A program made the translations under genes and the position numbers. The notes beneath the pieces are model-generated. The model worked only from the letters and a program-made list of their open reading frames with translations. It had not been told where the DNA came from and made no database searches. From NCBI GenBank assembly GCA_021733925.1, contig JAIPJY010000013.1:1-64000 (forward strand): a DNA stretch of 64,000 bases. The letters run 5' to 3'. Numbering within the stretch: the first letter of the stretch is position 1; each line of letters begins with the position of its first letter. Source of the DNA: Prosthecobacter sp. GTDB taxonomy: Bacteria; Verrucomicrobiota; Verrucomicrobiia; Verrucomicrobiales; Verrucomicrobiaceae. Positions 30,619 to 44,427 of this stretch are shown here, one piece after another.

Positions 30619-30894
30619 ATGAACGACTCCGAACTCAACCGCATGCTCAAACATGCCGCCGCCGCCCCCCCGGCGGTAGTGCCGCATGCGCTAGAGGAAG
30701 GAATCATGGCGCGAGTGCGAAGCGATGATGGCCGGGCCAGACGCTGGCGATCCTTTGTGCAATGGCTGCTGATCCTGGCCGCCGTCTCTGGCATCGTGAC
30801 TGCGAGTGTGGTGGGCTGGGCCATGGCTTCACGTGACACCACACATACCACCCCGCCCACCATGGAACTGTTTCGCACAGGAGAGCCACAATGA
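30619..30894 (+). CDS. CnrY-like membrane anti-sigma factor
   Basis: 91 residues from ATG 30619 (a GTG at 30601 is possible). The short N-terminal cytoplasmic part (MNDSELNRMLKHAA, then a helix) is followed by one membrane helix (WLLILAAVSGIVTASVVGWAMA) and a short periplasmic tail. Sequence alone is weak, but size, topology and position, first of three overlapping genes before a CnrX-like sensor and an ECF sigma factor, match CnrY, the small protein that holds CnrH at the membrane. ATGA overlap with the next gene. Confidence 0.68.
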   Translation: MNDSELNRMLKHAAAAPPAVVPHALEEGIMARVRSDDGRARRWRSFVQWLLILAAVSGIVTASVVGWAMASRDTTHTTPPTMELFRTGEPQ

Positions 30895-31349
30895 CCTCAC
30901 GGGTAAAGTGGCTGCTGATCTCAGTTTTTTTCTCCGCGGCCTTGGCCGGGGGAACTGCATGGCTGGTCACGGACTGGACGCTCCATCGCCACGGTGAAGG
31001 GCATGCGCATGATCACGCACCGACAGATCTGCATGCGTGGATGCATGAGCACCTCGACATCACGCCGGAGCAGCATGAAAAACTGGAACCTCTTGAAGCG
31101 GAGTTTGAAAAACTTCGGGTGACTTTGAAGGACGAAGTTCGTCTGGCCGATGTCTCACTGGCCCAGACCATTCGTGATCCGCAAATGAACGAAGCGGCGA
31201 TGAACGAAGCCTTGGAGCGATTGAACAAAGCCCAAGGCGCGCTGCAGCGGGCCACGCTGGAGCATTTTTTTGTGATGAAACGCTACCTGCGACCTGCGCA
31301 GGCCGCCAAACTCCTGGAGTGGACCCATGACAGCCTCACCCGCGATTGA
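30891..31349 (+). CDS. CnrX-like periplasmic metal sensor
   Basis: 152 residues, membrane-anchored by residues 7-27. In Cupriavidus CnrX the Ni/Co ligands are H42, H46, E63, H119 and M123. Here H48, H52, E69, H125 and M129 occupy the same places with a constant offset of six, within LHAWMH and LQRATLEHFFVM; the latter resembles CnrX strongly. An extra His-rich segment (HRHGEGHAHDH, 32-42) precedes the core and may bind further metal. It should pass the metal signal to the anti-sigma factor encoded just upstream. The 3' end overlaps the sigma gene by 23 bp. Confidence 0.85.
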   Translation: MTSRVKWLLISVFFSAALAGGTAWLVTDWTLHRHGEGHAHDHAPTDLHAWMHEHLDITPEQHEKLEPLEAEFEKLRVTLKDEVRLADVSLAQTIRDPQMNEAAMNEALERLNKAQGALQRATLEHFFVMKRYLRPAQAAKLLEWTHDSLTRD

Positions 31350-31941
31350 TGCGCTGCTGCTGCCGCAGACCGATGTCTCCGCTGATGATTCAGCGGAGAT
31401 AACGCACCTGCGTGCCGCCCAGGCGGGCGACATGGCCGCGTTTGAGTGGATCGTCCGAAGGCATGAGGAAAAGCTTTTTGGCTTTTGCTGCCGCTGGCTG
31501 CGCTGTGCGGAGGATGCACGTGAAGTCTGCCAGGATGCGTTTGTGCGCGCGTGGCAGGCGCTGCCTGAGTTCGAAGGCCGGGCAAAGCTTTCGACCTGGT
31601 TGTATCAGATCGCGCTGAACCTGTGCCGTGACCGGGCCAAATCGCGTGCTTCACGCCAGCGTGACAACACCACGACGATCAACGATCTGGATCAGCCGCT
31701 GCCATGTCCGCAGAATGCGCCGGATGCGAGTGCGGAATGGCAGAGTGAAATGCATAAACTCGAGCGCGGTCTGGCCCTGCTGCCTGAAAAACTGCGCACG
31801 GCGCTGATGCTCAGCAGCATGGAAGGCCTGAGCCATGAGGAATGTGCCAAAGTGCTGAACTGCTCCGTGCGGGGAACCGAAGGCCGCATTTACCGCGCCC
31901 GGCAAATGCTGCTGCGCTGGTGGAATGAAGAAGGTCAGTGA
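31327..31941 (+). CDS. ECF sigma factor, CnrH-like
   Basis: 204 residues. Region 2 runs through RAAQAGDMAAFEWIVRRHEEKLFGFC to DAFVRAWQALPEFEG and STWLYQIALNLCRDR; region 4 at about 135-195 has LPEKLRTALMLSSMEGLSHEECAKVLNCSVRGTEGRIYRAR, its helix-turn-helix. Third gene of a Y-X-H module. A long N-terminal leader (about 25 residues) precedes region 2. The gene converges on the dab operon with 7 bp of overlap at the 3' ends. No efflux genes of cnrCBA type are in the window, so its regulon is open. Confidence 0.9.
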   Translation: MTASPAIDALLLPQTDVSADDSAEITHLRAAQAGDMAAFEWIVRRHEEKLFGFCCRWLRCAEDAREVCQDAFVRAWQALPEFEGRAKLSTWLYQIALNLCRDRAKSRASRQRDNTTTINDLDQPLPCPQNAPDASAEWQSEMHKLERGLALLPEKLRTALMLSSMEGLSHEECAKVLNCSVRGTEGRIYRARQMLLRWWNEEGQ

Positions 31942-33323
31942 CCTCCCGCTGCTGCCCCCAGAGCTTTTTCAATGACCTGCGCGGCATCGGTGCGCCAGCC
32001 AATAATCGAGCTGGGAAACAGACCGCCGAAAATCAAATAGACCACGCAGACGGTCAGCGGCCAGCGCTCGCGCGGTAGGGCGTCAGGGATGTTGATCACA
32101 TGCTTTGGCAGCACCCCCAGGAACAGGGTGTTGTACAAGCGCAGCAGATTGATCGCATTGAAGACCGTGGCGACGAGCAGCACGATGCCGGCAGCCAGAT
32201 GATTTTGCAGCATGCCGTGAAATATGAGTTCCTCGGCGCAGTAGCCCAGAGTCCCGGGCAGGCCGACGAGCGCCAGCCCGCAGATCAGGAAGAAGGTGGC
32301 CAGCCGGGGTGCCTTGGCCGCCAGTCCCAGATGCATCAGCGGATCTTCGCTGCTGGTGACCCGCACCTCCAGCGCACGCACGATGCAGACAAGTCCCGTG
32401 GAAGCGGCTGCGACCACCAGCCAGTGAGTCAGCGCGCCGGTGATGCCTTCGGCATTCGCACTGGTGATGCCCGCCAGCATGAAACTCGCCTGGCTGATGC
32501 ACAGGTACGCCAGCAGCCGCCGCGGCTTCTTTTCCGCAAAAGCCCGCAGACTGGCAATGCCCACCGTGGCCACGGCTGCAATGCTGAGCACGTCAAAGGC
32601 ATGCCTGGCAGCCTCCGGCAAGGCGGCAGCCTCTGCGCGCGCCACCAGCACCACTCCGAGGTGGCCGTTGAAGAGCAGCGCCTTTGGCAGCAGCGGCCCG
32701 TGCTCAAAGGCCTGCACCACTCCGGCATGCAGGGGAAACAGACCTTTGCGGAACACGACCGCCAGAATGAGGAGGCCGAAGACCAGCCTCCCGCCATGGG
32801 CGAGATCACTGATCGAAGCGCTGCCCAGACACAGCACAGCTGCAGTCAGGGCCATACAGCTGGCCAGGCGGATACCGCTGGTCAGCCGAGTCTCACGCTG
32901 CGCACCAAACATGCCCAGCGCAAACGGCACACAGGAAAGCCACCAGCCCGCCACCATGGGAATCCAGCCAGCGGCGGCATAAGCCGTCTGCATGGCGAGT
33001 GAGATGAGCAGCATCCCGCCGGGAGCTTTTTCTGCCGCGTCGCGCCTGGGTGCCAGCACCATGACACTGAGGGTCAGTGCAGCATAGAAGGCCATGGGCA
33101 GGGCGTTCAGACCATCTGCCACGAAGCAGGGCAGCAGCGGATCATGCAGCGCCCCCTGCCCTGCAGTTCCTGATTCATGCATGGCCGCCAGAAAGCAGAT
33201 AAGAGCGAGCACTGCGGCCACAACCGCCACTCTTCGCGGTTGCTTGGTCTTCCAACATGCCAGCACACCACCCAGCAGGGATGTCAGGGCGGCGGTGATG
33301 TATGGCAGTGAAAGGTGCTCCAT
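31935..33323 (-). CDS. Second NuoL/M-type membrane subunit beside DabAB
   Basis: 462 residues, about 12-14 membrane helices, proton-conducting antiporter-like fold. VVFRKGLFPLHAGVVQAFEHGPLLPKALLF corresponds to the central lysine-containing helix of NuoM/L. At the usual TM5 glutamate (WELT in MrpA-type proteins) the sequence reads AGWWLSCVPF, so that acidic residue seems missing. It is the last gene of the carbon-uptake operon, 15 bp after DabB. It may be a structural or specialised proton-pathway partner; typical DAB systems have one such subunit. Confidence 0.75.
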   Translation of the reverse strand: MEHLSLPYITAALTSLLGGVLACWKTKQPRRVAVVAAVLALICFLAAMHESGTAGQGALHDPLLPCFVADGLNALPMAFYAALTLSVMVLAPRRDAAEKAPGGMLLISLAMQTAYAAAGWIPMVAGWWLSCVPFALGMFGAQRETRLTSGIRLASCMALTAAVLCLGSASISDLAHGGRLVFGLLILAVVFRKGLFPLHAGVVQAFEHGPLLPKALLFNGHLGVVLVARAEAAALPEAARHAFDVLSIAAVATVGIASLRAFAEKKPRRLLAYLCISQASFMLAGITSANAEGITGALTHWLVVAAASTGLVCIVRALEVRVTSSEDPLMHLGLAAKAPRLATFFLICGLALVGLPGTLGYCAEELIFHGMLQNHLAAGIVLLVATVFNAINLLRLYNTLFLGVLPKHVINIPDALPRERWPLTVCVVYLIFGGLFPSSIIGWRTDAAQVIEKALGAAAGGH

Positions 33324-33338
33324 GGAGTTTGTCTTGAA

Positions 33339-34688
33339 TCAGGAAACCGTGCTTTCAGCAGGATGTGCGGGTGTATTTGCAGCAGGCTGCTTTTGGGGCG
33401 ACTGCGGCTCAAAAACGGCGAGCCAGCGTGCCACTGCCTGGATGGGAGCAACGATCCAACGCTCCACGATTGCGTCATAAAATCCACGGCCGAGCGCCAG
33501 GCGGTAGAGCCAGAGCTGCAGAGCGGGTGGCAGCAGCGATTCGTAAAGGCTGCCAGTTGGGCTGACCTTGCCACCAGAGGCGGCATGCACCCGGTGATAG
33601 TCACGAAGCATGGACGGCGCGCGCAGAAACTGCAGCGTGCGCAGCGTGGCATGACTGACCAGATGGATGACGGCAAAGGTGGTCCAGCCAAAACCGATCT
33701 CGATAAATATAAGGCCTATCTGCGTCTGAGCCGCATAGGCCAGCGAGGCCTTGGCGTCAGCGCAGGTGCGGTGTACGAGCGTGCCTAGAAAGGCCGTGGC
33801 CAGGCCGGTGATGATGATGAGTCCGGTGGCAATCCACGACTGGTGAATGAGCGGCTCGATCCGCAGCAGCAGGTAGGCCCCGGCATGGATGGAGATGGCT
33901 CCATAAAACACGGCGCTGGATGGCGTGGGCCCCTCCATGGCCCGTGGCAGCCAGCCACAGAACAGTCCCTGCGATGATTTTCCCCCGGCTGCGATCACCA
34001 GCAGCACTGCAATGACTGTCCCCTCGGCACCCTGCATCTGGCTCTGACAGCCAGGCCATTCACCGCTGAACAAGCCCTCCCAAGAGGTGGTGCCGAACCA
34101 GTGATGCGCCAAAAAGATGGCCAGCAGCATGAACAAATCTGCCACACGATAAGAGGCAAAGACCCAGAGTGCATTGCGCACCGGCTCAGGCCGGTACTGG
34201 AAGAACCCGACGAGCAATACCGAGGTAATGGCCACCGTTTCCCAGCCGACGATGAGCAGATCCAGCGAGTCCGCCGTGAAGACAAGCAGCGCACCAAAGG
34301 TGAAAAGGTGCAGCAGCATGAAGAAGCGGTGAAAGCCCGGATCACGATGCAGGTAGCGCACGGAAAAGAAGCCCACGATGCCTGCCAGCACCACGGTCAA
34401 GCCAACCATCAGCAGGGAGAGCCTGTCAATGAGCAGGGACAGCGGATAGCCATAATGCCCCACGGTGAACCAGTCCCCCAGCATTACTCGCACCGAATGC
34501 AGCCCATCCACCCTCATGCGCCAGCCGGTCATGATCACGAGCAGCGCGAGAACCGCATACGCTGACTTGGTGATCCGCGCCATGGTGCGCTCCGTCACAC
34601 AGCCACCCAGCAGCCAGACGATGCTCAGCGCGAGGAAGAGCACGCCTGGCGTGGCGATGAACAGTGGGATCAGGATTTTTAGATTCAT
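33339..34688 (-). CDS. dabB: Proton-conducting membrane subunit, DabB
   Basis: 449 residues, NuoL-like. The TM5 glutamate is in LIVGWETVAITSVLLVGF and the key lysine in AAGGKSSQGLFCGWLPRAMEGPTP, which is the most conserved string of the family. It is preceded directly by DabA (DUF2309). In the DAB system DabB is thought to couple cation flow to one-way hydration of CO2 by DabA, accumulating bicarbonate. It lacks the C-terminal horizontal helix of true NuoL, consistent with a DabB rather than complex I part. Confidence 0.87.
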   Translation of the reverse strand: MNLKILIPLFIATPGVLFLALSIVWLLGGCVTERTMARITKSAYAVLALLVIMTGWRMRVDGLHSVRVMLGDWFTVGHYGYPLSLLIDRLSLLMVGLTVVLAGIVGFFSVRYLHRDPGFHRFFMLLHLFTFGALLVFTADSLDLLIVGWETVAITSVLLVGFFQYRPEPVRNALWVFASYRVADLFMLLAIFLAHHWFGTTSWEGLFSGEWPGCQSQMQGAEGTVIAVLLVIAAGGKSSQGLFCGWLPRAMEGPTPSSAVFYGAISIHAGAYLLLRIEPLIHQSWIATGLIIITGLATAFLGTLVHRTCADAKASLAYAAQTQIGLIFIEIGFGWTTFAVIHLVSHATLRTLQFLRAPSMLRDYHRVHAASGGKVSPTGSLYESLLPPALQLWLYRLALGRGFYDAIVERWIVAPIQAVARWLAVFEPQSPQKQPAANTPAHPAESTVS

Positions 34689-34715
34689 AAAAACATAGAG
34701 AATATGGCGGGCTTT

Positions 34716-37643
34716 TTACGCGGCCCGGGGGTCGATGCGGGCCAGAGCGAGGTGTTCCATTTTGCCGCGATACCAGGCCAGTGAGCTGGAAGCCACAGGA
34801 AGCGGTTCTTCATTGCCTTCAAGCTTCTCAAAGACACCGTCCCGGTACACCTCCACATGCCCGTCATCAGGGTCCATGGTGGCAATGCGAATCCACTGAT
34901 TGCAGACGATTTCGTTGAGTTCACTGTCTGCCTTGATGACGCTCATCAGACGTTCAGGCGTGGTTTCGACAACGAATAGCATGCGCACTGGCTCATGGAT
35001 CTCGACCGCCTGCGCCGGCAGTCCTGTGCGCAAATCACTTTGATAACCGTTCATCACGCCGACCAATCCGGTGATGTTATGCGGCAGTTTAGTGCCGCTG
35101 CCGTAAACATCATTATCGACGGCGGAGAAGTAATAATCTAGATTGATGCTGTAGCACACTGGAAGCGCCGCGCCGACAACTTGCGCCAGCGCTTCATTGG
35201 TGGGATCTTTGGTGGCATCGTAGGAAGCGAGAAAAGCACGGCGGTCCATGAACAGGCCTTTGGTGATCTCACGCCGTCCGACAAAGGTCACGGCGTTGGT
35301 GCAGTGTCCGTACTCAGGACGCGGCTCACCGATGTGTTCCGCACGCTCCTGCACATGCCTCAGGCTGGATTCCGGAGTGATGTCATGGCCTGCCGCCGCA
35401 AATCGACGTGCACGCTCATGGGCGTTAAGCGTGCGAGCCTTGTCGAGCGACTGATGAATGCGCGCCAGATCCGCATGGTGGGTATCAGGCAGCAGGTCCA
35501 CGTCAAAGAAGTTAATATCCTCGTTGCAGGTGTCGTGGTAACCGCCAAGAAACCAGGTATCCTCAGGAATGACCACCCCTTTGGCCCGCAAGGCTTCCCT
35601 CACGGCCGGGCGATTGGCGATGAGGGCAAACAGGCGTGCGTTGGGCGCACCAGTGCGCCCACCACAGGCCTGGCAGCAGTAGGCGGACTCGTAGGGGTTG
35701 TTCAGGCTGGTGGAACCATGACCGAGAATGACCACCAGACGCGCATGTCCCTTGTGCAACCCGGCAGGCCCGAGCACCTCATAAACACACTCCGCCAGCT
35801 CCTGCGTGGTGAACCCGCTCATGAGACCGGTGGTTGCATCCCTCGAGGCTGCATCGTCCCGCATGAAGGCAAACTCCGTCTTTGGCTCCGGCAAGAAGGC
35901 GCGGTTGAGTTGCTTGATGAATCGACCGTAGGCCAGCGGGGTGAGGACGCGCAGCACGAGTGGAAAGAGGCTGAGGAAACCGAGGCAGGCAGTGCTGATC
36001 CAACCGCGCACCAAGGTGCGCGAAGAGATGAAACTGTTGCGCGCCACCATGGCCCACACGCGGCGCATCCCCTGGCGCTGTTCATGCAAGTGCGCGTCCC
36101 CCCCGACGGCAACCTCACGCACAGAATGCGCAGGCTTAATGACGACGGGACACAGCGAGACGCCGTCCGCGTCATCCATGCTGGCGTTATTAATGGCCAC
36201 GCCAAAAAAGCCCGCGACTCCCACCGTTTCGATGCTGGGATCGACCTCTTCGAGCGCGCGGCGGATGGACTCCTCGCGTTCGTCAATACAGAAAACCACC
36301 TGGGCGATCAGGCGATTGCTGCTAGGCACGATCTGCGGCATGGCACGGTGCCTGGCCAGCGGAATCAACACACGCCGCTCATGTCTGCGCTCATAGGCCA
36401 GATGCAGCAGCCTTCGGCGTTCGGTCTCATGGCAGGCGAGGATCTCCTGATCCAGCCACGCCAGCTCCTCATCCGTGAAAGTCCCAAGCTCACTGCTGCT
36501 GATGCCCAGCAACTGGACTACATCAAACACACGCGCCACGTGGGTCAGCGAGTCAAAGCGCGGCACAGGCAGCAGGGTGGTGCGCCATGCGACCGTGTCG
36601 CCAGAGATGTCCTTGAGCGCCGCCACAGTGTAGGTGAGGCGCAGCGCAAGAAATTCCATGAGGGAGCAGCGCACACGATCATGCGGGGCCAGCGTGACAT
36701 CCACCTCCAGCATGCGGATCATGCCCGCCCAGCCTCGCAGCGCGAGCAGTTCTTCCGTGACAAACTCCTCCCACTGCCCCAAGGGCACATCGAGCTGTTC
36801 GAGCGCCTCCAACACGACGGTGTCCGCGTCCATATTGGCGGCGTCCTGCCTCAAAAATTCAGCGCGCACACCGCTGAGATGCGCCGGAAATATGGCAAAC
36901 ACCTGAGGCATGATCTTGCGCGCAGCCTGGAGCAGCCCCTTGTCACGGTGCGGCATGGGCCAATAGGCGATGCCCTGGTCCAGATAGGCCCCTGTGAGGC
37001 GGATGAGCGGAGGATGAATAAGCGCATCCATGTCAATGCCGTGCTGCACCAGCACGACATCGCGCGGACGTTTCGGCATCACGGGAGGTGGTGCTGGCCG
37101 AGGTTTCACCCTGACCCTGCATGCGTCCCAGAGCGCCGACGGAGAATCTCTGCGCAACGCCGTAGCGGAGGGCTCTGGCAGATCGTTGCGGAACGAATCC
37201 AGCCAGCCCCCCTCCTCAAGCTGCCAGGAAATGTTGATGCCATTCACCCGGCGCATACCGGGTGCCAGCATCACGCGCCTAAGCTCACGCCGCCTGAGCC
37301 TGCCCGGCAGGATGTCCGCATCCGGCTCACGGCTGAGAACCGCGTCAATATCTTCATCGAGGATGCGCCGCCTGCTCCGCTCCGTTTGATAAGCCTCTTC
37401 AGAAAGAAAAGGCTCGGCCTTGAACAACCTCCCGCCTTCAGTGACTGCGTCTTCAAACCTCCGGTGCTGCAACGAACGGAGCGTGTTGTAGTGCACAAAA
37501 ACCCCCAGGGGCCCCTGGATTGGCAGTGAATGAGCCGCATGATCCACCACCCGGCGCAGGTGCTCAAGACGCCCCTCTGCCGGCTGAGTCTCCTGCCAGG
37601 AGTCGTGAAGCCCACAGGGGCTGGCATGGGTGCGGATGCTCAT
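34716..37643 (-). CDS. dabA: DabA, DUF2309 carbonic-anhydrase-like inorganic carbon transporter subunit
   Basis: 975 residues. The zinc ligands of Halothiobacillus DabA (C351, D353, H524, C539) have clear counterparts: C452 and D454 in VVFCIDERE, H642 in ILGHGSTSLNNP and C657 in ESAYCCQACGG. The C-x-D and H-to-C spacings (2 and 15 residues) are identical. The N-terminal GVFVHYNTLRSLQHRRFEDAV is typical of the family. It acts with DabB as a vectorial CO2 hydration pump. The gene lies 206 bp downstream of the sensor kinase, with a hairpin in that gap, so it may also have its own promoter. Confidence 0.93.
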   Translation of the reverse strand: MSIRTHASPCGLHDSWQETQPAEGRLEHLRRVVDHAAHSLPIQGPLGVFVHYNTLRSLQHRRFEDAVTEGGRLFKAEPFLSEEAYQTERSRRRILDEDIDAVLSREPDADILPGRLRRRELRRVMLAPGMRRVNGINISWQLEEGGWLDSFRNDLPEPSATALRRDSPSALWDACRVRVKPRPAPPPVMPKRPRDVVLVQHGIDMDALIHPPLIRLTGAYLDQGIAYWPMPHRDKGLLQAARKIMPQVFAIFPAHLSGVRAEFLRQDAANMDADTVVLEALEQLDVPLGQWEEFVTEELLALRGWAGMIRMLEVDVTLAPHDRVRCSLMEFLALRLTYTVAALKDISGDTVAWRTTLLPVPRFDSLTHVARVFDVVQLLGISSSELGTFTDEELAWLDQEILACHETERRRLLHLAYERRHERRVLIPLARHRAMPQIVPSSNRLIAQVVFCIDEREESIRRALEEVDPSIETVGVAGFFGVAINNASMDDADGVSLCPVVIKPAHSVREVAVGGDAHLHEQRQGMRRVWAMVARNSFISSRTLVRGWISTACLGFLSLFPLVLRVLTPLAYGRFIKQLNRAFLPEPKTEFAFMRDDAASRDATTGLMSGFTTQELAECVYEVLGPAGLHKGHARLVVILGHGSTSLNNPYESAYCCQACGGRTGAPNARLFALIANRPAVREALRAKGVVIPEDTWFLGGYHDTCNEDINFFDVDLLPDTHHADLARIHQSLDKARTLNAHERARRFAAAGHDITPESSLRHVQERAEHIGEPRPEYGHCTNAVTFVGRREITKGLFMDRRAFLASYDATKDPTNEALAQVVGAALPVCYSINLDYYFSAVDNDVYGSGTKLPHNITGLVGVMNGYQSDLRTGLPAQAVEIHEPVRMLFVVETTPERLMSVIKADSELNEIVCNQWIRIATMDPDDGHVEVYRDGVFEKLEGNEEPLPVASSSLAWYRGKMEHLALARIDPRAA

Positions 37644-37751
37644 CGAAGATCAAAGGGCTAATAAAAAGCCTCCTTTCAGACTGCGCCATCCCTTCATCAA
37701 GGGGTTATTCCACTACGGACCACAGGGGGTGCATTTGCCAGGCATTTCCAC

Positions 37752-37770
37752 CCATGCAGCGCCTGCATGG
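37752..37770 (-). promoter_or_regulatory. Small hairpin in the kinase-dabA gap
   Basis: CCATGCAG (37752-37759) pairs with CTGCATGG (37763-37770) around CGC. It sits 109 bp before the dabA start. No T-run, so it could be an operator palindrome for the NarL-type regulator or an mRNA processing site. Confidence 0.4.
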
Positions 37771-37849
37771 TCCATACCGTTGCCTCCATGCCCTGGACAC
37801 CTGCCCAGCAACTCCATTTCCATACCCAAACCGGGCGGAGGCGCCTATA

Positions 37850-39160
37850 TCAGGCCGCTGGTGCCTGCAGCGGGATCACGATCTCGATTCGAAGTCCCTG
37901 CGGCAGCACACTGCTGGCGGTCAGTTCGCCGCCGGACTGCCGTGCCCGCGCACGCATGCCCACCATGCCAAGGCTGGGACTGTAAATAATATCGCCGGTG
38001 TGATTGGGCAGGCCTTTGCCATTGTCCTCTATGGTGAGAAGGATGTTTTGATCCCGATGCTTCAGGCTGATTTTCACTTCCGTGGCCTCCGAGTGCCGGG
38101 CGATGTTGGTGAAAGCTTCCTGGGCGATGCGGAAGAGGTGCGTTTCCGTTTCATCAGCTAGCCGACCCGTGAAGTCAGAATCGTAATCCACTTTCAGACG
38201 CGTACGCTGGCCAAATTTTTCCGCCAGCCAGCGCAAGCCGGCATCCAGACCAAAATCATCCAGAATGACGGGCCGCAGCAGATGGGAGAGCTCGCGCACA
38301 TTGGCGATGGATTCATCCACGAGATGCAGGCAGTCGGCTCGAAGTGAGGGCAGATCATGCGTGGAGCCCTTGGTCAGGTTCGAACGCACGGCGGCCAGCG
38401 ACTGGCCCAGCTCGTCGTGCAGTTCGTGAGAAAACCGCCGTGCGGCTTGCTCCTGAGTCTGCAGCATATGCCAGGACACTCGGCTCAGTTCCTCGGACTG
38501 CCAGCGGATGCGCTGGATGCTCTTGCGGGCAAAGGCAATGGTCAGAATGGCCGAGATCGCGGCGAGGAAGGAGCTGGAGCCCAGCAGCAGAGCCGAGTCA
38601 TCACTGAGATCTTGCGACTGCTGCTCCAACTGGTGTTCGGTTTTGGTGAGATGTTCCGAGCTGCTTTTGATGAGCTTGTTGACCAGCTCGACGACCTGGC
38701 TGTGATGCATGAACAAGGTCTCCAACTTTTCCCGCTGAACCGGTTCATTGCTTTCCAGCAGCCGGTGTGATTCCTGGGTGAAAGCTTTGACTCCCCTGTC
38801 CAGGTCCGCCCACAGTTCCGCATCTGCCAGAGACCGAACCTCCGGCCCGAGCCGAGAAATCTGGCGATCACTTTCATCCAGCTCCTGCAGCAACTTGGCC
38901 AGATCGGCGCGCTTCAGCTCAAACTGGGCGAACTGATGCAGCACCCCCGTCATGGTGTTTTCCTCCGACTGCACATCCTGCCGCAAGCGGGCGATGAGGA
39001 ACTGGTCCCGCGCCATCTGCTCCACCCCGTGCCGGATGCCCTGGCTCTGGCGTACGGCGATGAGACCCGCCGTTCCCAGCAGCACCATCACCAGCAGGAA
39101 ACCCAGCGCGAGGACTCGCAGCACGTAGCGTTCGGTGATGCGCAGGAAGGTGAACGACAT
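37850..39160 (-). CDS. Membrane sensor histidine kinase, HisKA_3 (NarX/DegS type)
   Basis: 436 residues from ATG 39160; a TTG at 39181 overlaps the SulP stop. TM1 (LRVLALGFLLVMVLLGTAGLIAV) and TM2 (ALLLGSSSFLAAISAILTIAF) bracket a helical periplasmic sensor of about 140 residues. The dimerisation/phosphoacceptor motif is RRFSHELHDELGQSLAAVRSNL, and the ATPase domain shows FRIAQEAFTNIARHSEA, EDNGKGL and SLGMVGMRARA. It pairs with the NarL-type regulator encoded first in the same operon; the SulP-carbonic anhydrase gene lies between them. Confidence 0.92.
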   Translation of the reverse strand: MSFTFLRITERYVLRVLALGFLLVMVLLGTAGLIAVRQSQGIRHGVEQMARDQFLIARLRQDVQSEENTMTGVLHQFAQFELKRADLAKLLQELDESDRQISRLGPEVRSLADAELWADLDRGVKAFTQESHRLLESNEPVQREKLETLFMHHSQVVELVNKLIKSSSEHLTKTEHQLEQQSQDLSDDSALLLGSSSFLAAISAILTIAFARKSIQRIRWQSEELSRVSWHMLQTQEQAARRFSHELHDELGQSLAAVRSNLTKGSTHDLPSLRADCLHLVDESIANVRELSHLLRPVILDDFGLDAGLRWLAEKFGQRTRLKVDYDSDFTGRLADETETHLFRIAQEAFTNIARHSEATEVKISLKHRDQNILLTIEDNGKGLPNHTGDIIYSPSLGMVGMRARARQSGGELTASSVLPQGLRIEIVIPLQAPAA

Positions 39161-39177
39161 GGGGGCAGGATGCGAAC

Positions 39178-41460
39178 TCAAATGGCCTTGACCATGGGAA
39201 TCGGCAGCGGTGAGTGGCTGGAGCCCTCTGTCTGAAAGAAAGATACCATGCCGGTCTGGATGTCGTACATAGCACCGACGATGACCAGCTTTCCTTGCTG
39301 AACCAGCCCTGTCAAGGTGCTGCTGCGCTCGGTGATCTTGCGCATGGTGCGCAGCACATTGCGGCGGGAGACCTCGTTGGCGTAGGCTGCCTTTTCAGCA
39401 GGCAGCCATTCACCTTCACGCTTGCAGGTGCTGAGGTCGACCGACTTTTGAATCTCACTGACGAGCGAATCGAGATTCACACAGCCGGTGGCTTCCGCAG
39501 CGGTTTGATTGCTGCAAATGAGATCCACAGCGGCATTGACCGCACCACAGGAAGTGTGACCCATGACCAGAATCATCTTCGCACCCGCCACGGCACAGCT
39601 GTACTCCAAGCTCCCCAGCACCTTGTCGCGCGCGATGTTGCCTGCGATCCGAACACTGAAAACATCTCCCAGGCTCAAGTCGAAAACGAGTTCTGCCGGC
39701 GTGCGGGAGTCGATGCAGCTGAGCACGACAGCCATGGGGAACTGACCGGCGGAAGTCGCATCCACCAAGCGGCCTATGTCGCGCGTGAGATGCGTGCCCT
39801 CACGGAACCGCTCGTTGCCTTCTTTGAAGATTTCCAGCACACGTTCCGGCGTCAGACTGTCCTGCACTTCGCGGCTGCTGTAATTCAAAAATTGAATGCG
39901 GTCTTTGATCTGCGGATATTTGTCTTTGAATCCCGCCAGACTGAGCTTGATGCCGTGCACCTTGGCCGTGTTGTGCTGAAAGTCGTGGATTAGGTCTAAA
40001 ATGTCCGCGTCAATGTAGTCCGTGCTGCGCGCATCCAGGAGAACATGGCCGCCCTTTGGAACGCTGCGCAGGGTTTCCTCGAGCTTCACACGGCTGAAAA
40101 AGCTCACCTGATTGGCAAGCTCAATGCGCAGGACGTCGCCGGTGATGTGCTGCTCCATGAACTTGCGCAGAGGCCGGCGCATGTTGCTGTGCAAAATGAA
40201 GCTGATGCTGACGACAAGACCAATGACGATGCCGACCAGCAGATCTGTCAGAACAATGGCAACGACTGTGATGATGAACGGCAGGAACTGGTTCCTGCCT
40301 TCAGTCCACATCTGTTTGACCAGAGCGGGACTTGCGAGCTTAAGCCCGGTCATGAGCAGAATGGCTCCGAGCGCGGCAAGCGGGATCTGGTTCAGCATGC
40401 CGGGCACCAGCAGAACGCAGCCAAGCAGCAGAATGCCATGGAAAAAAGTGGAGAGCTTGGTTTTGCCGCCGGCATTGATGTTCACACTGCTGCGCACGAT
40501 CACGCTCGTCACGGGCAGACCTCCGATCAGCCCTGCGGTTACATTGCCGATTCCCTGTGCGATCAGCTCCCGGTTGGGCGGACTGCTGCGCTGCTGGGGG
40601 TCGATCTTGTCCACCGCCTCAAGGTTGAGCATCGTCTCCAGGCTGGCGACGATGGCGATGGTGAATGCCGCGCCATACACGGCAGGATTGCCCAGCGCGG
40701 AAAAATTCGGAAACACGAGAAAGCCGAGGAACGCGCTGAAGTCTTTCGCCACCGGAACCTGAACCAGGTGAGAAGCTCCGATGGCCCATGCGCCACCGCC
40801 CACCTGCTTCAGCAACATGCTGACACCCACACCAAACAGCACCACCACCAGAGGGGCCGGCACAACACTATTTTTCAAAGGCTTGATCTTGTCCCAAAAA
40901 ACCATCAGCAGAATGGAAAGCACGCCCACCAGCGCGGCACCGGGCTGGATGTCAAACAACGCGGACCAAATTTCAGTGAAAGTGTTCTCATGGTCGGGCT
41001 GTTCGAAACCCATGTCACCTTCCGGGTCAGGGTCGTGCCCCACAACGTGCGGGATTTGTTTGAGTATCAAAATGACCCCGATGGCGGCCAGCAGTCCCTT
41101 GATCACACTTGAAGGGAAAAACGCGGCAATGAAACCGGCACGGCAGACACCGAGAATGATCTGCAGCACCCCTGCAAACATCACCGCCAGCAGGAACACA
41201 TCAAAAGCTCCCAGCTTGGTGATCTGTGCCGCCACAATGGCAGTCAAACCTGCCGCAGGTCCGCTGACACTCGTTTGGGAACCGCTGAGAACTCCGACTA
41301 CAATGCCGCCGATAATCCCCGCCACGATGCCCGCAAAGAGAGGTGCATTGGACGCCAGAGCCACCCCCAGACACAGCGGCAGCGCCACGAGAAAGACAAC
41401 GAGGCCGGCGGAGAGATCTTTGAAAAAGGTGGGGGGGGAGCTCGTGGAGGTGGCAGGCAT
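39178..41460 (-). CDS. SulP anion transporter fused to STAS and beta-carbonic anhydrase
   Basis: 760 residues. Residues 1-425 are the SulP membrane domain (SGPAAGLTAIVAAQI, IGNVTAGLIGGLPVTSVIVRSSVNI). About 435-525 is a STAS domain (DILDLIHDFQHN). About 538-750 is a complete beta-carbonic anhydrase with zinc ligands C582, H635 and C638 and the D584-R586 dyad, seen in SCIDSRTPAEL and GHTSCGAVN. The fusion strongly suggests bicarbonate as substrate, hydrated or dehydrated at the membrane. It is followed by the kinase gene and by dabAB. Confidence 0.93.
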   Translation of the reverse strand: MPATSTSSPPTFFKDLSAGLVVFLVALPLCLGVALASNAPLFAGIVAGIIGGIVVGVLSGSQTSVSGPAAGLTAIVAAQITKLGAFDVFLLAVMFAGVLQIILGVCRAGFIAAFFPSSVIKGLLAAIGVILILKQIPHVVGHDPDPEGDMGFEQPDHENTFTEIWSALFDIQPGAALVGVLSILLMVFWDKIKPLKNSVVPAPLVVVLFGVGVSMLLKQVGGGAWAIGASHLVQVPVAKDFSAFLGFLVFPNFSALGNPAVYGAAFTIAIVASLETMLNLEAVDKIDPQQRSSPPNRELIAQGIGNVTAGLIGGLPVTSVIVRSSVNINAGGKTKLSTFFHGILLLGCVLLVPGMLNQIPLAALGAILLMTGLKLASPALVKQMWTEGRNQFLPFIITVVAIVLTDLLVGIVIGLVVSISFILHSNMRRPLRKFMEQHITGDVLRIELANQVSFFSRVKLEETLRSVPKGGHVLLDARSTDYIDADILDLIHDFQHNTAKVHGIKLSLAGFKDKYPQIKDRIQFLNYSSREVQDSLTPERVLEIFKEGNERFREGTHLTRDIGRLVDATSAGQFPMAVVLSCIDSRTPAELVFDLSLGDVFSVRIAGNIARDKVLGSLEYSCAVAGAKMILVMGHTSCGAVNAAVDLICSNQTAAEATGCVNLDSLVSEIQKSVDLSTCKREGEWLPAEKAAYANEVSRRNVLRTMRKITERSSTLTGLVQQGKLVIVGAMYDIQTGMVSFFQTEGSSHSPLPIPMVKAI

Positions 41461-41565
41461 GCAGGAGGAAAAGTATGGATTATTGGAGTAAACGGCATTT
41501 CAAGCTGCTCCTCCTACGAATCCAACAACAAAAAGGCAGCAATTTTCCACAACATGCTCAATCCT

Positions 41566-42207
41566 TTAATCAATCAAACCGTTGCGGATGGAAAAGCGCA
41601 CCAGTTCGCCGATGGAATGAAGGTTGAGCTTTTCCATGATGCGGCCACGGTGAGCCTCCACGGTGTACACGCTCAAATTCAACACCGAGGCGATTTCCTT
41701 GTTGGTCTTGCTCTCAGAGATCATCTGCAGCACCTCCCGTTCCCGTGGTGACAGCAGGTCGATCGGGTTGGTGACGTGCTTGCGATAGTCGTCCAACACC
41801 GCATCGCTGACTTCCGGACTGAGAAATCCTTTGCCATTGGCGACGGCCCGAACGGCAGAAAGAAGATCGCTTTCGTTGCTGTCCTTCAACAGGTAGCCGT
41901 TGGCTCCCGCACGAAGCATTTCACGCACATAGACGGAGTCCTTCTGCATGGAGAGCGCCAGAATGCGCGCCTTCGGCACCGCCTTCGTGATCTGCCGCGC
42001 CGCCTCAATGCCGTTAAGCTCGGGCATCGTCACGTCCAGGACCACGATGTCCGGCTGCAGATTGATGGCTTTTTCCACCGCTTCCCGTCCATTGGCTGCC
42101 TCGCCCACGACTTCCATGTCCCACTGCGCAGCGAGGATCATGCGAAAGCCGTTGCGGACCACGGCATGGTCATCGGCAAGAAGAATGCGTGTTATTTTGG
42201 CAGACAT
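41566..42207 (-). CDS. NarL/FixJ-type response regulator
   Basis: 213 residues from ATG 42207 (MSAKITRILLADDHAVVR); upstream codons of the frame reach into the divergent gene's leader. The receiver has the acidic pocket ADD and phosphoacceptor aspartate in DIVVLDVTMPELNG, with the conserved lysine in ANGYLLKDS. The LuxR-type HTH is LSPREREVLQMISESKTNKEIASVL...VEAHRGRIMEKL. First gene of the carbon-uptake operon and divergent from a TonB receptor gene. Its kinase is encoded two genes downstream. Confidence 0.93.
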   Translation of the reverse strand: MSAKITRILLADDHAVVRNGFRMILAAQWDMEVVGEAANGREAVEKAINLQPDIVVLDVTMPELNGIEAARQITKAVPKARILALSMQKDSVYVREMLRAGANGYLLKDSNESDLLSAVRAVANGKGFLSPEVSDAVLDDYRKHVTNPIDLLSPREREVLQMISESKTNKEIASVLNLSVYTVEAHRGRIMEKLNLHSIGELVRFSIRNGLID

Positions 42208-42321
42208 GCAAATGTCACCATAGCGATCCTGAGGCGTGCGGCAAAGGGCAAAAAACTGGGGTTTATTTTGTGGGAATCTCGACGGCAAGTCGTCCCACAG
42301 AGGCCACCCCAATCCCAATTC

Positions 42322-44427
42322 ATGCCCGACATCCGTCTCTTCAGAGTTTGCCTCAGCATCGCCTTGATGCCGCTGATGAGCCATGCCCAGTCTGCGGTAA
42401 AGACGCCCGGAGGAGACGGCTCACTGACTGAGGAGCTCGCTCTCGAAATGCCCGAAATCATCATCGAGGGCAAGGCGGAAAGTCTCATCGGCATCGCCAC
42501 CTCGGCCTCAAAAGGCCAGACCAGCACCAAGGAACTCATGGCACGGCCCTTTTCACGTCGTGGCGAGTTGCTGGAAAGCATTCCGGGCTTTATCGCCACG
42601 CAGCACAGCGGTGATGGCAAGGCGAACCAATACTACCTGCGCGGCACCAACCTGGACCACGGCACCGACTTTGCGATCTACGTTGATGGCATGCCGGTGA
42701 ACCTGCGCAACCATGCGCACGGACAGGGCTATGCGGACACAAATTTCATCATCCCGGAACTGGTCGGTCAGCTTGAATACGGGAAGGGCACCTACTACGC
42801 GCAGCATGGAGATCTCAGCTCCACCGGGGCTGCGCGCTTCAAGCTGCTGGATGCGCTGCCGCAGGGCATTCTCTCCACCACCTGGGGCGAATATGATTAC
42901 TCGCGCACGCTGATCGCGGATACGATCCAAGCGGGTGCCGGGCAGCTCACCGTGGCCTTGGAGCATCAGTACTACAACGGCCCTTGGGATTTGCATTCAG
43001 ACGCCACCCGCTTGAACGGCTTCCTGCGCTGGCACTGGGAGGACGCCAGGGACAAGATAAACCTGACCTTCATGGGCTATCACGGCAAATGGAAGTCCAC
43101 CGATCAGGTGCCACAGCGTGTCGTCGAAAGCGGTCTGATCGGTCGTTATGGGAACCTTGACCCAACAGACGGCGGCAATTCACAGCGCTACAGCCTGTCA
43201 TTTGACTGGGTGCGCAATGAAGGCCGCACCACCACGCGTGCCAATGCTTATGCGGGCTTTTACGACCTCGATCTGTTTTCCAATTTCACCTTCTTCATGG
43301 ATAGCATCGCGCGTGGCGACACGCTGGGTGACCAGTTCGAGCAAAAAGACCATCGCTGGTTTCTTGGTGGCGAACTCGCGCGTGACTGGCGTTTCGATGC
43401 CATGGGCCAGGAGCAGCGTTTCACACTCGGCATCCAGTTGCGCACCGACATCATCACCGGCCTCGGCCTGTACAACACCTCTCAGCGTGAGCGCTGGAAC
43501 ACCGTGCGGCAGGATGACATCACCCAGTCCACCTACGGCCTCTACGTGGAGGCGGAACTCAAGCCTGTGCGCTGGCTGCGCATCATCCCCGGTCTGCGCG
43601 GCGACGTGTTTCAATTCAACGTGGAGAAGAGCAACCTCCCGGAGAATGCGGGATCACTGACCAAGGGCATCGTCAGTCCTAAGCTGAGCATGGTGTTCGG
43701 CCCCTGGGCCAAGACAGAGTTCTATGTGAACGCCGGCATGGGCTTCCACAGCAATGATGCACGCGGCGTGAACATCACCACCGACCCTAACACTGGCGGC
43801 CCGGCAGATCGGGTCAATCCGCTGGTGCGCACCTACGGTGCCGAATTCGGCATTCGCAACGAGTCCATTCCCAAGCTGGTGAACACACTTTCCTTTTGGA
43901 TGCTGCACAGCGATTCGGAGCTGATTTACACGGGTGATGCCGGCACCACCGAGCCGGGAGCAGCCTCGATGCGCCAGGGTATCGAACTATCCAGCTACTG
44001 GCGTCCCGAGGAATGGGTCATGCTCGATATTGAGGCAACGTTGACCGAGGCGCACCTGGTCAACACCGATCCCCCCAATCAAAAGATCCCCAACTCCATT
44101 CCCTACACCTTCAATGGGGGCATCACGCTCGGAGGCGCCCAGGGCTTCTTCGGCTCGTTGCGTGCTCGTTACTTCGCACCACGGCCCTTGGATTCAGTGG
44201 TGGACGTCAAAACGCGCGAGTCGTTGCAGGTCAATGCCCGCCTGGGCTATCGTCACAAAAACCTGGAGATCGCGCTGGATTGCCTGAACCTGCTCAATCG
44301 CAGTGACTACGATGTCGCTTATTACTATGCCTCCCAGCTCAAAAGCGATGCAGCTCCGGTCAATGATGTGCATGTGCATCCCATCGAACCGCGCATGTTT
44401 CGTCTCTCGGTGACCTACCGCTTCTAA
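42322..44427 (+). CDS. TonB-dependent outer-membrane receptor
   Basis: 701 residues from ATG 42322, followed by a signal peptide (FRVCLSIALMPLMSHAQS). A plug domain spans about 60-180 (FSRRGELLESIPGFIATQHSG, YYLRGTNLDHGTDFAIYVDG), then a 22-strand-type barrel ending in FRLSVTYRF with the terminal phenylalanine typical of outer-membrane proteins. The C-terminal DVHVHPIEPR is His-containing. The substrate is unknown; divergence from the carbon-uptake operon suggests shared control, possibly supply of a metal such as zinc needed by the two carbonic anhydrases, which is inference. Confidence 0.88.
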   Translation: MPDIRLFRVCLSIALMPLMSHAQSAVKTPGGDGSLTEELALEMPEIIIEGKAESLIGIATSASKGQTSTKELMARPFSRRGELLESIPGFIATQHSGDGKANQYYLRGTNLDHGTDFAIYVDGMPVNLRNHAHGQGYADTNFIIPELVGQLEYGKGTYYAQHGDLSSTGAARFKLLDALPQGILSTTWGEYDYSRTLIADTIQAGAGQLTVALEHQYYNGPWDLHSDATRLNGFLRWHWEDARDKINLTFMGYHGKWKSTDQVPQRVVESGLIGRYGNLDPTDGGNSQRYSLSFDWVRNEGRTTTRANAYAGFYDLDLFSNFTFFMDSIARGDTLGDQFEQKDHRWFLGGELARDWRFDAMGQEQRFTLGIQLRTDIITGLGLYNTSQRERWNTVRQDDITQSTYGLYVEAELKPVRWLRIIPGLRGDVFQFNVEKSNLPENAGSLTKGIVSPKLSMVFGPWAKTEFYVNAGMGFHSNDARGVNITTDPNTGGPADRVNPLVRTYGAEFGIRNESIPKLVNTLSFWMLHSDSELIYTGDAGTTEPGAASMRQGIELSSYWRPEEWVMLDIEATLTEAHLVNTDPPNQKIPNSIPYTFNGGITLGGAQGFFGSLRARYFAPRPLDSVVDVKTRESLQVNARLGYRHKNLEIALDCLNLLNRSDYDVAYYYASQLKSDAAPVNDVHVHPIEPRMFRLSVTYRF

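Follow-up and report, generated by a model that had tools for sequence, protein, structure and literature searches.

Fusions of a SulP anion transporter with a carbonic anhydrase (CA) were reportedly described by Felce and Saier in 2004. They are noted in PMC6458275 and in Table 1 of PMC6689103; the former links a SulP transporter that adjoins or is fused with a CA to bicarbonate, and sulP/can2 transcripts are said there to fall as CO2 rises. For DAB2 of Halothiobacillus neapolitanus, the 2026 structure paper offers a hypothesis for the coupling between ion flow and CO2 hydration, in which protons pass the outer half of their path by way of E444 on the membrane finger of DabA, and the periplasmic half-channel is made of this finger acid and the last DabB helices; E444 and K347 were tested as important, E444 replaced by Ala or Gln abolished activity in vivo, and L658 is called strictly conserved (PMC13144422). 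SulP-CA and DAB are both known kinds of system. Here, we report an island in a 64,000-nucleotide stretch of Prosthecobacter sp. DNA (contig JAIPJY010000013.1; "the window") in which a three-subunit DAB with a NuoM-like third subunit (M) lies beside a SulP-CA fusion and a two-component system (TCS). The two inorganic carbon (Ci) systems and the TCS form a real, recurrent association. The NuoM-like subunit, present as the initial annotation had claimed and underrated there, marks a deep, distinct DAB class, and we consider it the most valuable element of the island. Neither a NuoM-like DAB subunit nor a TCS-SulP-DAB locus is described among the literature matches listed, a weak negative, with subscription papers mostly outside the coverage.

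In the Pfam analysis of the window, the six genes are intact, on the minus strand and in the order initially annotated. Together with a conserved element they are as follows.

41566..42207, minus strand: NarL/FixJ-type response regulator (RR), 213 aa; PF00072 95 bits, PF00196 72 bits; adjoins the kinase gene in relatives
39178..41460, minus strand: SulP anion transporter-beta-carbonic anhydrase fusion (SulP-CA), 760 aa; PF00916 210 bits, PF00484 123 bits; SulP part 12-397, weak STAS-like linker, CA part 577-739 with C582, D584, R586, H635 and C638
37850..39160, minus strand: HisKA_3-type sensor histidine kinase (HK), 436 aa; PF02518 (HATPase), PF07730
37684..37710, minus strand: conserved palindromic element 5' of dabA, candidate regulator-binding site; core AACCCCTTGATGAAGGGATGG at 37686-37706; 26.0 bits against the position weight matrix (PWM)
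34716..37643, minus strand: DabA, long type, 975 aa, beta-CA-like zinc subunit; PF10070 732.5 bits; PDB relative 9rd0_A, E=4e-65
33339..34688, minus strand: DabB, NuoL-like membrane subunit, 449 aa; PF00662, PF00361 (1-228 of 294)
31935..33323, minus strand: NuoM/NdhD-like third subunit (M), 462 aa; PF00361 91.9 bits

Two features of a DAB are found, i.e., a PF10070 subunit with its zinc ligands (C452, H642, C657) and Asp-Arg dyad (D454, R456), and an adjoining NuoL-like PF00361 partner. The zinc ligands of SulP-CA (C582, H635, C638) are likewise intact and accompanied by D584 and R586; the residue numbers first assigned to the two proteins (C582/H635/C638 and C452/D454/H642/C657) proved exact. 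The nearest solved chains of the CA part are 1ym3/2a5v, and the best match of the STAS-like linker, PF13466 (STAS_2), stays under the cut-off (E=0.034); the BicA and DauA models score SulP-CA far under their cut-offs, and bicarbonate is its predicted substrate. A receiver and a LuxR-type helix-turn-helix domain in RR and HisKA_3 in HK (Pfam) place the pair among NarL-type systems. The gaps measure 105 bp (RR/SulP-CA), 17 bp (SulP-CA/HK), 206 bp (HK/DabA), 27 bp (DabA/DabB) and 15 bp (DabB/M), and the tight spacing first noted applies to the three short ones but not to those of 105 and 206 bp. For HK we took ATG 39160, which gives 436 aa, the length in several relatives; TTG 39181 is also possible, and reading from it turns the 17-bp gap into an overlap of SulP-CA and HK.

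The residues that distinguish this DAB were compared with DAB2 (DabA2-DabB2) as the reference, using 28 sequences of the two-gene type and 78 of the long, three-gene type (the 78 DabBs comprise 76 distinct ones). The zinc ligands, the Asp-Arg dyad and A376 are kept in every aligned DabA. The E444 finger position, which holds E in 27 and D in 1 of the 28 two-gene-type DabAs, is acidic neither in the window nor in any of the 78 named long DabAs, one of the 78 having a gap here in one alignment; our two alignments place this column one or two residues apart in the long DabAs, and it is acidic in neither. Position L658 is Leu in all 28 two-gene-type DabAs and His in all 78 long ones (H780 in the window). 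In DabB, I151/H260/K347 become E/Y/R in 78/78 three-gene sequences (E150, Y262 and R350 in the window), whereas each of the 28 two-gene-type DabBs lacks E at 151 and has H at 260 and K at 347; S316 is replaced by A in 75/78, and the R182/D185/K235 set is kept in 78/78. The window's DAB differs from the two-subunit DAB2 type in the E444 acid, in L658 and in the DabB 151/260/347 pattern alike, and in the tree a single split (85 versus 29 sequences, support 1.0) sets the long DabAs apart.

The membrane subunits point the same way. The AlphaFold2 model of DabB has a mean predicted local distance difference test (pLDDT) score of 81.7, and the alignment of DabB with a NuoL of ~600 residues spans only ~360 columns; DabB appears to be without the region of transmembrane helices (TM) 12-14. 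For M, the prediction shows the full NuoM/NdhD fold (pLDDT 89.9, predicted template modeling score 0.91), and Foldseek finds it like NuoM, NdhD and MrpD, with 6khi_D on top (TM-score 0.86) and NdhD of 6tjv among the best matches. With helix numbers taken from complex I and columns set by motifs in the NuoM of this genome, the TM5 Glu common to this genome's NuoL, M and N is gone in 46/46 M sequences (W128 in the window), and an acid is found in the TM12 region of all 46; in 39 it occupies the position of the NuoM Glu itself, and in the others it lies one residue on. Sequence matches of M in the PDB mostly begin near residue 180, i.e., its N-terminal part has diverged.

The long DabA alignment, used to scan named genomes, gave 314 relatives, of which the best 80 were kept; by title these are Verrucomicrobia, Acidobacteria and one Elusimicrobia. 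Among them are 78 full-length DabAs, 25 being the same genes as in the family loci described below. M follows DabA in 64 of the 65 named loci with at least 2.5 kb of room; the other 15 of the 80 comprise 13 with less room, two of which show M, and two without a full DabA. Altogether there are 82 distinct long-DabA loci, 40 of them too short to count. The 25 verrucomicrobial loci with room on both sides hold M in 24, HK and RR in 17, SulP in 20 and SulP-CA in 4, and the 17 acidobacterial ones hold M in 17, HK and RR in 7, SulP in 9 and SulP-CA in 0, with none of HK, RR and SulP at eight. In a phylum sample of 288 genomes, strong M-like matches occur only in the window's genome and in G002 (748 and 509 bits; handles G, C and L stand for our genomes, contigs and loci); the next, at 96 bits, is taken as an ordinary complex I or Mrp-type subunit. 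One acidobacterial locus (L129:2768-10895) has two SulP and two separate beta-CA genes directly 5' of the DAB triad, an unfused counterpart of SulP-CA.

The family set consisted of 68 genomes, and genes within 15 kb were counted as neighbours. DabA is present in 47 genomes, SulP-CA (E <= 1e-100) in 39 and an HK orthologue (E <= 1e-40) in 50, as a single match in 48 of these. We labelled the DAB kinds a (the classic two-gene DabB-DabA with a short DabA), b (the window's: long DabA, short DabB and the NuoM-like gene) and c (SulP-DabA-DabB-NuoM-like). The exact six-gene order, the recurrence of which the initial annotation proposed to look for in relatives, was found again in G034 (L060) and G027 (L061). 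Other loci show RR-HK with a divergent plain SulP and DabABM, RR-HK-DabABM alone (L054, L058), or RR-HK-SulP-CA with DabABM further along (L079). Counting the window, 24 of 52 HK places are near a type-b DabA, four of them also near SulP-CA (at one of the 24, in G030, the DabA is a fragment of ~70 residues); 7 are near SulP-CA only, 2 near a type a or c DabA and 19 near neither system. Seen from DabA, HK lies within 15 kb at 23/34 type-b places and at 2/32 places of type a or c, and SulP-CA at 5/34 and 9/32, respectively. SulP-CA stands alone at 20 of its 41 places (42 matches, two pieces in G037 merged).

Two relatives, G021 and G042 (L263, L264), carry RR-SulP-CA-HK without dab at the same kind of site, i.e., with a TonB-receptor-sized frame before RR and with the ECF sigma gene and downstream genes after HK; G021 is without any DabA match, and G042 has only a type-a DabA elsewhere. 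Because of the neighbourhood counts and these two DAB-less loci, dabABM looks like a removable module, and one sensor pair is linked to both Ci systems. There are exceptions: in L108, the contig of which was read as L047 as well, DabA is present and DabB and M are absent, and L052 and L043 are without SulP and TCS in the stretch used, HK lying 10 kb away in the genome of L052 (G055).

Several side observations belong to these neighbourhoods. The DabA of L058 (G048:C125) is split by an in-frame stop into two open frames, and its neighbours look intact. Kinds b, c and a all lie within ~25 kb in L037 and L038 (G024:C1:985000-1021000), with plain SulP genes among them. SulP-CA is also found near the classic two-gene-type DAB (L081, L083, L085, L065, L068), a second association, and L048 has an alginate-export-type porin gene (PF13372; 6578-8044, minus strand) between a plain SulP and DabA. 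As to the flanks, the window's island is bordered by an extracytoplasmic function (ECF) sigma gene at 31327-31941 (+) and by a divergent TonB receptor gene ending at 44427 (+). The sigma gene follows a Metal_resist-type (PF13801) gene (30891-31941 (+) for the two) and shares 7 bp with the end of the NuoM-like gene. In L048 and L061 the island is flanked by a similar sigma frame, and such a frame also stands after HK in L263 and L264.

The palindromic element 5' of dabA scores 26.0 bits, the next best site in the window 6.1. It is found at 7 bits or more upstream of 33 of 35 distinct long-dabA genes of Verrucomicrobia, by a PWM trained on sites of 21 relatives that are part of those counted; the two counted without it are L076 and L173, and L173 has one (27.9 bits) outside the stretch searched. 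The element holds 1.28 bits of information per column, versus 0.43 and 0.30 in its flanks. Of 21 divergent SulP/dabA pairs, 12 carry a reversed copy directed towards SulP, at a distance of 59-61 bp in nine of them; in L249, L253 and L255 the element also lies upstream of another SulP (~611 aa) in the neighbourhood of the same HK-RR pair. Over 1.9 Mb of loci we counted 87 matches of at least 9 bits (six per locus at most, training sites and some duplicate loci included) versus 17 in one shuffle. The element resembles the inverted heptamer of NarL-type regulators; it could also form a hairpin in RNA, and Rfam gave no match at gathering score in 31000-43000. Where HK-RR stands away from DAB (L249, L253, L254, L255, L262), a gene of 309-311 aa, presumably SPFH/stomatin-like, is found nearby, and a SulP of 611-613 aa in four of the five.

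The initial annotation read the island as one regulated Ci-supply system. That the Ci systems and the TCS belong together is borne out by the order in L060 and L061 and by the acidobacterial loci; the single transcription unit is not. The gaps between the six genes showed no intrinsic terminator that would split them, such a split being one part of the outcome by which the annotation would have had its reading refuted, and the terminator-like matches on the genes' strand lie inside genes. This result speaks for a single operon, which we nevertheless rejected as the simplest reading, dabA having its own conserved element and dab being missing as a block in two relatives. The six genes are probably not one operon: dabABM is read as a separate unit that would be controlled through the element, most likely by the neighbouring RR, and SulP-CA as part of the regulator operon.

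The window's genome (G000; 7.3 Mb, 127 contigs, 93% complete) is likely that of a Prosthecobacter-like heterotroph. At E <= 0.001 the assembly gave no match to the RuBisCO large subunit or to PRK (a search that did not include carboxysome shell families), which extends to the assembly the earlier remark that the window holds no RuBisCO. There is one DabA, and there are two beta-CA matches, one being SulP-CA. The second, on contig C69 (L246:2325-3245 (+)), carries a fused P-II domain (PF00543, 49 bits) at its N terminus and is possibly another Ci-responsive device; the frame divergent from it is one we take to be LysR-like. Other SulP-family matches are on contigs C13 and C90, the latter (C90:32833-33816) a plain SulP matched in two separate pieces of one 522-aa open frame. 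Three further PF00361 genes, all on C13, are taken as complex I.

We consider it fairly probable that the island serves a heterotroph as a regulated module for bicarbonate supply, built of two units (RR-SulP-CA-HK and dabA-dabB-M) and containing a three-subunit DAB in which M supplies a half-channel or a second ion path. HK and RR would respond to a shortage of Ci or to a correlated state, e.g., alkaline pH or membrane energy, and RR would turn on dabABM through the element at 37684-37710. Ion flow through DabB and M would drive the hydration of CO2 to bicarbonate by DabA, and SulP-CA, expressed from the regulator's own operon, may import bicarbonate and/or equilibrate it with CO2. The product would feed anaplerotic, biotin-dependent and carbamoyl-phosphate carboxylations rather than the Calvin-Benson-Bassham cycle. 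In complex I, TM12 of the M subunit faces TM5 of the L subunit. M and DabB may sit side by side in the same way, the TM12 acid of M next to the TM5 Glu of DabB, and M would then provide the half-channel that is missing, or else a second, coupled path for ions; we infer this pairing because the finger acid and apparently the last DabB helices are gone, M keeps its TM12 acid and DabB has a TM5 Glu, a residue absent from DabBs of two-subunit systems. It is our boldest step, and rests on residues rather than on a model of the complex. CO2 sensing, Ci transport and an altered proton path are likewise predictions from sequence. The island would most likely supply bicarbonate when CO2 is scarce, as proposed for MpsAB.

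A more far-reaching version seems to us possible, though rather doubtful: a distinct, undescribed ion-driven CA, the outer ion path of which has moved from the DabA finger to the NuoM-like subunit, with an L-M pair resembling the complex I tip, an ion count per CO2 hydration that is different and possibly larger, and an active-site His of canonical type, and with the element as the dab operator of a NarL-type system that also governs SulP transporters in relatives among the Verrucomicrobia. Several points weigh against the bicarbonate-supply reading. The element was not found upstream of RR or SulP-CA, in the window or in the DAB-less L263/L264, so that it does not tie SulP-CA to the regulon and control of both systems by one regulator is what we infer. 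Genome-wide, the pattern with up to two mismatches occurs 65 times, versus 58 in the backward control, i.e., with little or no excess, and the three other one-mismatch matches (C2, C45, C66) score under 7 bits by the PWM. None of the 17 acidobacterial loci that have room holds the element at 12 bits or more, though one of 20.0 bits occurs in L134, where room is lacking. The 19 HK places near neither Ci system count here too, and contig ends may account for some. Since the long DabAs stem from a single split, the residue changes represent one evolutionary event and not 78. The structure predictions are of monomers only, and the C-terminus of DabB is of low confidence. A reversible CA in the same cytosol would tend to drain the bicarbonate pool, and the two systems may for that reason not run together. 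In DAB2, L658 changed to Q, G, A or N left the activity in vivo unimpaired, so the His at this position may matter little, and I151E halved the growth yield (PMC13144422), an effect that would fit a Glu in need of its partner subunit, without proving that.

The draining of the pool makes alternation a serious rival. SulP-CA would serve when bicarbonate is available, and in pH control, and DAB when CO2 is scarce, the TCS switching between them and sparing the pool from the reversible CA. The element, upstream only of dabA in the window, would suit such a switch, and so would the relatives, in which the same site holds RR-SulP-CA-HK alone, RR-HK-dab alone or with a plain SulP, or both; for Acidithiobacillus, SulP import with Can2 dehydration is proposed as proton control (PMC6458275). 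The window organism, however, retains both systems together, and we regard alternation as a tentative option. That the genes are neighbours merely by chance, i.e., two independent Ci genes and an unrelated TCS acting on another target such as the divergent TonB receptor, we hold to be quite improbable: the HK places near neither system, the 20 of 41 SulP-CA places standing alone and the lack of a shared element upstream of SulP-CA would follow from it, but HK is near the window's type of DabA at 24/52 places and near SulP-CA only at 7, SulP-CA lies within 15 kb of 9/32 DabAs of other types, and SulP, TCS and DAB are associated in Acidobacteria, too.

The DAB itself may be read in two other ways. 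As mainly an ion (Na+/H+) or pH device of the MpsAB kind, M would be an Mrp-type antiporter; its fold is like that of MrpD as well as NuoM and NdhD, and MpsAB is proposed as a possible sodium bicarbonate cotransporter (PMC6689103). We think this unlikely, given zinc ligands and an Asp-Arg dyad intact in every aligned DabA and an M without the TM5 Glu that NuoL, M and N of this genome keep. That same loss, in 46/46, and the diverged N-terminal part would agree with M as a recruited passive scaffold, with catalysis as in DAB2; yet the TM12-region acid is present in 46/46, M is retained in 64/65 loci with room and the DabA finger acid is gone, and this reading, too, strikes us as improbable. We keep to the regulated bicarbonate-supply module with M in the ion path.

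The three-subunit class amounts to a natural experiment, E444, K347 and L658 having been replaced together while a second antiporter-like subunit appears, and it makes the proposed DAB proton path directly testable. The island suggests that a heterotroph has a dedicated Ci supply, apparently under regulation, which bears on how Verrucomicrobia and Acidobacteria grow when CO2 is low; it is also a source of new parts with which engineered hosts could accumulate bicarbonate.

The cyanobacterial NDH-1MS complex takes up and hydrates CO2. It also combines L-like and M-like membrane subunits with a CO2-hydrating subunit (6tjv), which makes it a parallel in how the island may work and not a claim of family; DabA is a PF10070 protein, the island holds no other NDH subunit, and the six proteins gave no CupA or NDH-1 core Pfam match (CupA was not searched for genome-wide). 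Like known SulP-CA fusions such as Rv3273, that of the window joins SulP to a C-terminal beta-CA; unlike them, it has the gene of a NarL-type RR on one side, that of the cognate HK on the other, and a DAB as neighbour. MpsAB of Staphylococcus aureus, a DAB homologue, also belongs to a heterotroph, and growth at the CO2 level of air depends crucially on it; it differs from the window's DAB in its mpsAB(C) operon and in being possibly Na+-coupled according to its authors, and the available text of PMC6689103 makes no mention of SulP-CA or TCS neighbours. DAB1 of H. neapolitanus (DabA1, DabB1, hneap_0908) is also described as three-subunit, but its third protein is, by that description, a small hypothetical transmembrane protein (PMC13144422). 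With DAB2 (PDB 9rd0/9rd8/9rd9), the window's DAB shares the PF10070 zinc subunit (C351/H524/C539, D353-R355 and A376 in DAB2) and a NuoL-like partner; unlike DAB2, it has the A-B-M gene order with a third, NuoM-like gene, no acid at E444, His for L658 and E/Y/R for I151/H260/K347 in a DabB that is apparently without TM12-14.

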